Assembly (NCBI GenBank): GCA_007695355.1
Contig: REDX01000164.1
Coordinates: 1-60,830 of the forward strand
Direction: 5' to 3'
DNA length: 60,830 nt
Origin: Planctomycetota bacterium
Lineage (GTDB): Bacteria; Planctomycetota; UBA11346
A program made the position numbers and the translations under genes. How positions within the stretch are numbered: position 1 is the first letter of the stretch; the number at the start of each line of letters is the position of its first letter. Positions 55,929 through 56,722 of this stretch are shown piece after piece. A model generated the notes under the pieces. That model did not search any database and had not been told where the DNA came from. It worked only from the letters and a program-made list of their open reading frames with translations.

Positions 55929-56006
55929 CGGGGCGTAGCTCAGCCTGGCTAGAGCGCCTGGTTTGGGACCAGGAGGTCGCATGTTCGAATCATGTCGCCC
56001 CGACCA
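55929..56006 (+). tRNA. tRNA-Pro (anticodon TGG)
   Basis: A complete 78-nt cloverleaf. The acceptor CGGGGCG/CGCCCCG has the C1-G72 pair typical of bacterial tRNA-Pro, the anticodon stem is CCTGG/CCAGG with loop TTTGGGA (anticodon TGG), and the T-arm GCATG TTCGAAT CATGT and CCA are encoded. Its 3' 32 nt recur twice downstream as part of a tandem array. Confidence 0.96.
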
Positions 56007-56177
56007 AAATAAAGACCCCGCTTAAGAAAGTGGGGTCTTTTTTTATGGGGATCGCCTTGCTGCATGGATTCGAACATGCGGCTCTTACCTCTTGTGATCA
56101 GCAAAGCTGATCACAGGTCCGGGGGGACGGGCTTGCCAACCCCGGCAAGCCCTACGCGCTGCGCGCGTTCCCCCCGG
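55975..56177. repeat. Array unit 1: tRNA-Pro 3' end plus structured spacer
   Basis: From the last 32 nt of tRNA-Pro, through its terminator, to an inverted T-arm copy (56067-56080, exact complement of 56181-56194), a hairpin of 10-bp arms with loop AAA (56093-56115), and a three-way junction: outer stem GTCCGGGGGGA/TCCCCCCGGAC (56117-56127, 56167-56177) around GGGCTTGCC/GGCAAGCCC and ACGCGC/GCGCGT. Unit length is 203 bp. Confidence 0.88.
56011..56044 (+). terminator. Rho-independent terminator of tRNA-Pro
   Basis: AAAGACCCC / GGGGTCTTT, a 9-bp stem with a 12-nt loop, runs into an uninterrupted T tract. It begins 5 nt after the tRNA. Confidence 0.9.
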
Positions 56178-56383
56178 ACGGTCGCATGTTCGAATCATGT
56201 CGCCCCGACCAAGAGAAAGCCTCCACTTCAGTAAGTGGGGGCTTTTTTATGGCCATCGCCTTGGTGCATGGATTCGAACATGCGGCTTTTAGCTCTTGTG
56301 ATCAGCAAAGCTGATCACAGGTCCGGGGGGACGGGCTTGCCAACCCCGGCAAGCCCTACGCGCTGCGCGCGTTCCCCCCGGAC
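56178..56383. repeat. Array unit 2
   Basis: Second unit, 206 bp, nearly identical to unit 1 after the terminator. It begins with a 32-nt copy of the tRNA-Pro 3' end including CCA (56178-56209), then a different terminator-like hairpin (AGCCTCCACTT/AAGTGGGGGCT followed by T6), the inverted T-arm, the AAA-loop hairpin and the same three-way junction. No 5' half of a tRNA is present, so this copy cannot fold as a tRNA. Confidence 0.88.
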
Positions 56384-56415
56384 GGTCGCATGTTCGAATC
56401 ATGTCGCCCCGACCA
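56384..56415 (+). repeat. Third copy of the tRNA-Pro 3' end
   Basis: 32 nt identical to the tRNA-Pro T-arm, acceptor strand and CCA. It closes the array. The bases after it (CTTTTAGCTC) also occur within unit 2, so the junction resembles a recombined unit. Confidence 0.88.
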
Positions 56416-56722
56416 CTTTTAGCTCAGGGGCGATGCCCCTACGGCTGCTGCGCAGCCTACCCCACTGGCTTTGGCGGGGTTCACCCGAATCGGCAAGCCG
56501 ATTCGCCTGTGGGCGCATCGCGGCGCGATCATATGCGCCCACCACCCCTTGGCGCCAGGTCCCCGCTTAAGTAAGTGGGTCTTTTTATGGCGAATAAACC
56601 TCGTTACCAAGGCGGAAGCCACGGACGGTGGGACTCTTGTCCCACCAGAGTGCCTGGCCGAGCTAGCGCTCGGGAAACCCGCGACCACAAAGCGAAAAGC
56701 CACCCATTCTGCAAGCACCTGC
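56416..56722. other. Hairpin cluster downstream of the tRNA-Pro array
   Basis: No gene. Successive hairpins: AGGGGC/GCCCCT (loop GAT), GGCTGC/GCAGCC (loop TGC), CGAATCGGC/GCCGATTCG, GTGGGCGCAT/ATGCGCCCAC enclosing ATCGC/GCGAT, then the 19-bp word shared with the tRNA-Ala locus (56543-56561), a terminator remnant with T5 (about 56564-56587), GTGGGAC/GTCCCAC (56628-56645) and CCGAGC/GCTCGG. Many apices read GC-loop-GC. Confidence 0.7.

Follow-up and report, generated by a model that had tools for sequence, protein, structure and literature searches.

A tandem array behind a planctomycete tRNA-Pro gene, probably composed of RtT-type units

The window studied here, a stretch of 60,830 nucleotides from a member of the Planctomycetota, contains an intact tRNA-Pro(UGG) gene with encoded CCA (55929-56006, forward strand; recognised by ARAGORN and by Rfam RF00005 with 64.9 bits) whose 3' end reappears downstream within tandemly arranged units. 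What are these units, and do they correspond to any family already described? A sequence-only reading of the locus had named no family with such a plan. The RtT elements of Escherichia coli do have it, as they consist of a tRNA 3' end, an inverted T-arm, a folded core and again the tRNA 3' end in tandem, and the array is probably best explained as a small number of RtT-type units trailing a tRNA gene in tandem.

Anatomy of the array behind tRNA-Pro(UGG)

The last 32 nucleotides of the tRNA, CCA included (GGTCGCATGTTCGAATCATGTCGCCCCGACCA), recur as direct repeats on the forward strand at 56180-56211 and 56384-56415, each copy being identical at 32/32 positions. The sequence-only reading had thus counted the three occurrences correctly, while the spacings of 203 and 206 bp which it gave have to be replaced by 205 and 204. 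Behind the tRNA, whose own 3' end stays intact, a terminator-like hairpin is found at 56011-56044 (forward strand; repeat analysis and consensus scan). It is followed by an exact 14-nt inverted copy of the T-arm of tRNA-Pro at 56067-56080 (reverse strand; GATTCGAACATGCG), which was identified by repeat analysis and stands out in a shuffle test with a match score of 14 compared to a best score of 10 among 200 shuffles. Fold prediction and covariation indicate a hairpin with an AAA loop, H1 (TGTGATCAGC-AAA-GCTGATCACA), at 56093-56115 and a three-way junction at 56117-56179, both on the forward strand, before the second copy of the tRNA 3' end is reached.

The second unit repeats this order. Its terminator-like hairpin (56216-56248, forward strand) was missed by the consensus scan and is recognised by the direct-repeat families D2/D3 only; the inverted T-arm at 56271-56284 (reverse strand) is again an exact 14-nt match, and H1 (56297-56319, forward strand; repeat analysis and fold prediction) and the three-way junction (56321-56383, forward strand; fold prediction) are predicted as in the first unit. 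All four elements named in the sequence-only reading are therefore present in both units, and its description of the units as gene-free and structured holds as well, since they fold with z values of -10.3 and -9.5 and no shuffled sequence folds as well. The two units are 97% alike. As they differ to this extent, and as the same plan is encountered on independent contigs, among them a two-unit array lying within a 273-kb contig of a third genome, the artefactual duplication of a single unit during assembly, which the earlier reading had named as a possible refutation, is unlikely.

In a scan of the array no promoter-like site was found. Together with the terminator behind each copy of the tRNA end this means that an RNA product of the units would need read-through. 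Apart from the tRNA, the Rfam scan of the window region returned weak chance matches only, such as RT-13 with 23.5 bits at a cut-off of 69.

Directly behind the third tRNA 3' end lies repeat D (56416-56558, forward strand; CTTTTAGCTCAGGGGC..CGGCGCCAG), a dispersed multi-hairpin repeat which occurs at many further sites of the genome (also at L025:509-790, L026, L027, L029 and L031), often directly after stop codons and sometimes in tandem (139 bp at contig C11). The third copy of the local terminator-like hairpin (56561-56586, forward strand; repeat analysis and consensus scan) follows it.

Related units at other tRNA genes

The same genome (G000), whose closest protein relatives mark it as planctomycete, harbours a second array behind tRNA-Pro(CGG) on contig C288, which runs off the contig end and in which the 3' end of this tRNA is copied at 30/32 nt. 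Repeat D is present within this array, too; because it intervenes, neither here nor behind the last copy in the window is the tRNA 3' end directly followed by the terminator-containing repeat. We considered tRNA-Pro(GGG) as the source of the altered T-stem found in the C288 copy and rejected it; its acceptor end differs, which leaves in-place compensation or conversion from another tRNA.

In a sister genome of the genus (G001), tandem units with a period of 206 bp are built on the initiator tRNA, tRNA-fMet (contig C234). The tRNA-fMet gene lies on contig C59, the end of which matches C234 over 111 bp at 99%, and we infer from this overlap that the two contigs join; the unit-bearing planctomycete genomes are drafts. 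Across the Pro(UGG), Pro(CGG) and fMet loci the period of the related units amounts to 199-206 bp, and the inverted T-arm fits the respective local tRNA at 14/14, 14/14 and 18/21 positions. Neither tRNA-Pro gene of the sister genome carries units, and both genes are single: a plain terminator follows tRNA-Pro(CGG), and a D-like repeat directly follows tRNA-Pro(UGG). Hence, the units are not essential in that genome.

Structural alignment of the Pro and fMet cores places 97.6% of the cells in pairs and reveals 16 pairs changed on both sides, a result reached by none of 500 shuffles. The alignment was fitted to the structure of the model and comprises four sequences, of which two are nearly identical, drawn from three loci. 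For these reasons the covariation within the unit core is strong but narrow.

Two further observations concern tRNA-fMet. Searches of the G000 assembly recognised no tRNA-fMet gene; the assembly contains a 35-nt relic of an fMet unit (L190:1487-1521, reverse strand, corresponding to C173:16986-17020) which comprises the end of the three-way junction and the tRNA-fMet 3' end with no adjoining tRNA. Apart from this relic we found no unit away from a tRNA. At L174:1-117 the hairpin core preceding the first fMet 3' end of the contig is of another kind, and its initial 11 nt are identical to a portion of the tRNA-fMet anticodon arm.

The sequence-only reading had proposed to search relatives with a covariance model. 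Such a scan of the phylum, in which seven candidates were scored per genome and the E-values are rough, detected the core in the two genomes of the genus and in none elsewhere; matches in G008 looked spurious when read. An exact-pattern scan of the genome contigs for the core gave no match. Seven pattern matches on viral contigs proved to be coding-like sequence devoid of array features, one further viral match to the model is weak (20.8 bits, L209), and the plasmid and phage searches yielded one short match each, confined to the tRNA end.

Arrays of comparable layout do occur beyond the genus. In G009, which belongs to another genus of the same family (g9), two units of about 304 bp follow tRNA-Pro(UGG) on the 273-kb contig mentioned above (C32, locus L014), and a 24-nt stretch antisense to the anticodon arm and variable loop (23/24) occurs twice in tandem. 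In G029, from another planctomycete family, a hairpin core is enclosed by perfect direct repeats of 78 bp and 65 bp, respectively, at two tRNA-Pro genes, the repeat being composed of 13 nt of the tRNA plus terminator and spacer. Among 135 planctomycete tRNAs, 7 are accompanied by a copy of their 3' end scoring at least 12, as are 7 of 36 in E. coli, compared to none after shuffling; the shuffles, as those of the inverted-piece test, preserve single-base composition only. A preference for tRNA-Pro is no more than suggested by G000 and G029, the two genomes in which most tRNAs were examined, since loci from the other planctomycete genomes were mostly fetched as tRNA-Pro.

At seven loci from planctomycetes and E. 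coli the inverted piece corresponds to the local tRNA, and wherever it is significant it starts about 50-65 nt behind the tRNA. The shuffle test gave no significance for the inverted piece at the loci of G029 and G033 and at argV and argZ of E. coli.

Comparison with RtT and other known elements

To our knowledge, RtT, to which the 178-bp repeats of the tyrT operon (rttR) belong, has been described only from gammaproteobacteria and its role is uncertain. As a positive control we analysed E. coli K-12, where three units of 178 bp follow tyrV, each of them ending in 19 nt of tRNA-Tyr, containing a 22-nt inverted copy of the T-arm region (86%) and recognised as RtT by Rfam RF00391 with 134-137 bits. 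Further RtT elements are located in the tyrT-tyrV interval, at lysV (47.3 bits) and, below threshold, at argV and argZ, where the plan is present in part and the inverted piece is weak. The order of elements at lysV is that of the window array, as terminator and spacer are duplicated there, too. The number of annotated RtT units at the tyrT locus ranges from 0 to 5 among E. coli strains, the spans of the arrays changing in increments of roughly 178 bp, and the tRNA end is intact in the allele without units; the comparison of copy number among strains which the earlier reading had suggested thus finds variation in this analogue. E. coli annotation lists RtT as an sRNA derived by processing of the tyrT transcript. 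Statements on the function of RtT, among them a connection with the stringent response (PMC4986893, which cites Bosl and Kersten 1991), come from secondary sources.

Both RtT and the planctomycete units are located directly behind tRNA genes, at several different tRNAs. Both are arranged in tandem, with a period of 178 bp in RtT vs. 204-206 bp in the planctomycete, both possess a hairpin-rich core, and in both each unit ends in the local tRNA 3' end with CCA. At tyrT, tyrV and lysV the inverted piece of the same tRNA, starting 50-60 nt past the tRNA, is present at an offset similar to that of the planctomycete units, a feature which is our own reading of the E. coli loci and not part of a published definition. 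In contrast, the tRNA copy is longer in the window units (32 nt compared to 18-19 nt), their core is made up of the AAA-loop hairpin and the three-way junction, and each of them carries a terminator-like hairpin, whereas none is seen in the tyrV units. The phylum and the tRNAs concerned differ as well, the planctomycete units being found at Pro and fMet. RF00391 had no match in the region of the window searched at E values up to 5, none at L001, C288 and C234 at E values up to 10, and none in a set of 59 genomes to which G000 belongs. The planctomycete units are thus RtT-like in plan and not members of RF00391, and they may have converged on the plan of RtT.

BIMEs, which rtT is stated to resemble (PMC2965389), and GTAG-tagged REPs (PMC3733652) share with the units the character of short palindromic non-coding repeats behind genes. 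By eye, CTAC (GTAG on the other strand) adjoins palindromes in repeat D and one arm of a window unit, while GCAG takes this place in the C288 unit. BIME and REP sequences, however, exist as many dispersed copies, whereas the planctomycete unit is present in few copies, at tRNA genes only, and includes tRNA-derived parts. Integrative elements inserting at tRNA 3' ends likewise repeat the tRNA 3' end and leave the tRNA intact. Unlike them, the unit is devoid of genes, measures about 170 bp, carries flanks, terminator included, that are copies of local sequence, and shows related cores at different tRNAs.

Origin and possible role of the units

The arrays follow a common rule, S-core-S, in which S is the local tRNA 3' end, at several loci extended by terminator and spacer, and the core is a hairpin-rich non-coding module whose opening part, about 50-65 nt past the tRNA end, is an inverted segment of the same tRNA. 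A founding event can be envisaged in which a palindromic core settles behind a tRNA gene while local sequence is duplicated and part of the tRNA is copied backwards. Strand switching at the hairpins of the tRNA itself or the insertion of a REP/BIME-like element are candidate routes to the backward piece. Recombination between the repeated tRNA 3' ends would subsequently add or remove units and in every case leave a functional tRNA behind; such exchange, for which the E. coli alleles provide support, is assumed for the planctomycetes by analogy. Read-through transcripts might be trimmed at the CCA ends and thereby release unit RNA, and it is again the analogy to E. coli which suggests that planctomycete units could do so during tRNA processing.

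The sequence-only reading had proposed a tandem of minimal integrated satellites. In this view a tyrosine recombinase supplied in trans would insert a gene-free element of about 205 bp into the tRNA 3' end, which is regenerated each time. The presence of n cores and n+1 tRNA 3' ends next to an intact tRNA agrees with this, as do the exact differences by whole units seen in the E. coli analogue and the tyrosine recombinases encoded in both G000 and G001. Yet the search for such enzymes which that reading had called for, successful in so far as six integrase matches turned up in the genome, located none of them on the array contigs C142 and C288, and no unit occurs away from a tRNA bar the 35-nt relic. 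Around the cores, which are related within each phylum, the tRNA end is in each case that of the locus itself (Pro, fMet, Tyr, Lys or Arg), and so, at several loci, is the terminator. Since an integrase brings one fixed site, whereas the flanking repeats are local, a site-specific satellite does not fit and we regard this origin as improbable. The integrase genes near the ends of tRNA-Phe, Pro(GGG), Ser and Gly look like ordinary islands. Even less credible, and largely refuted, is the reading which the earlier analysis had named as its own potential refutation, that of decayed tandem tRNA duplicates among ordinary intergenic hairpin repeats with no special unit. Hairpin repeats are indeed abundant in the genome, and repeat D is found within both of its arrays. 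Every copy, however, is devoid of the 5' part of the tRNA, related cores with compensated helices recur at three tRNA genes in two genomes, and the relatives checked have no tandem intact tRNA-Pro genes at this place.

A third explanation takes the unit to be a structured RNA under selection. It would be cut from tRNA read-through, and its backward piece could pair either with the tRNA itself or with the forward copy, thereby tuning the supply of that tRNA or the stress response. Compensatory helix changes, the fit of the backward piece to the local tRNA at seven loci and the annotation of RtT as an sRNA with its stringent-response link speak for such a role. On the other hand, the same tRNAs do without units in the sister genome, a terminator precedes each unit and the independent sequences are few, so that we hold it to be rather unlikely. 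A slightly better, though still small, chance may be given to the broader idea that RtT is one instance of a cross-phylum bacterial class whose units rebuild themselves from the host tRNA, with a reverse copy at an almost constant distance and a forward copy at the 3' end, and in which the reverse copy acts on the tRNA at the RNA level.

Returning to the RtT-type array which we prefer, it is the cross-phylum regularity which makes the locus interesting. The plan of RtT in Planctomycetota, with unrelated sequence, at other tRNAs and with a similar offset of the backward piece, suggests either a general generation of such units by tRNA genes or a shared function, and the planctomycete arrays provide independent cases for testing both.

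Some minor observations may be added. A tRNA-Pro whose anticodon looks like GGG is represented by its 3' part at a contig end (start of the reverse strand of L202, contig C75 of G000); a tyrosine recombinase gene is present on the same contig, and there is no array. An IS200-like (Y1) transposase gene at L123:1387-2202 (reverse strand) represents the sole PF01797 match in the genome, and no flanking by unit-type or D-type repeats was seen. Finally, hairpin repeats also adjoin tRNA ends at L030:352-430, L040, L050, L055, L098 and L118, namely the 3' ends of Val, Ser, Leu and Lys tRNAs and the 5' end of an Arg tRNA, some of these tRNAs lacking an encoded CCA.
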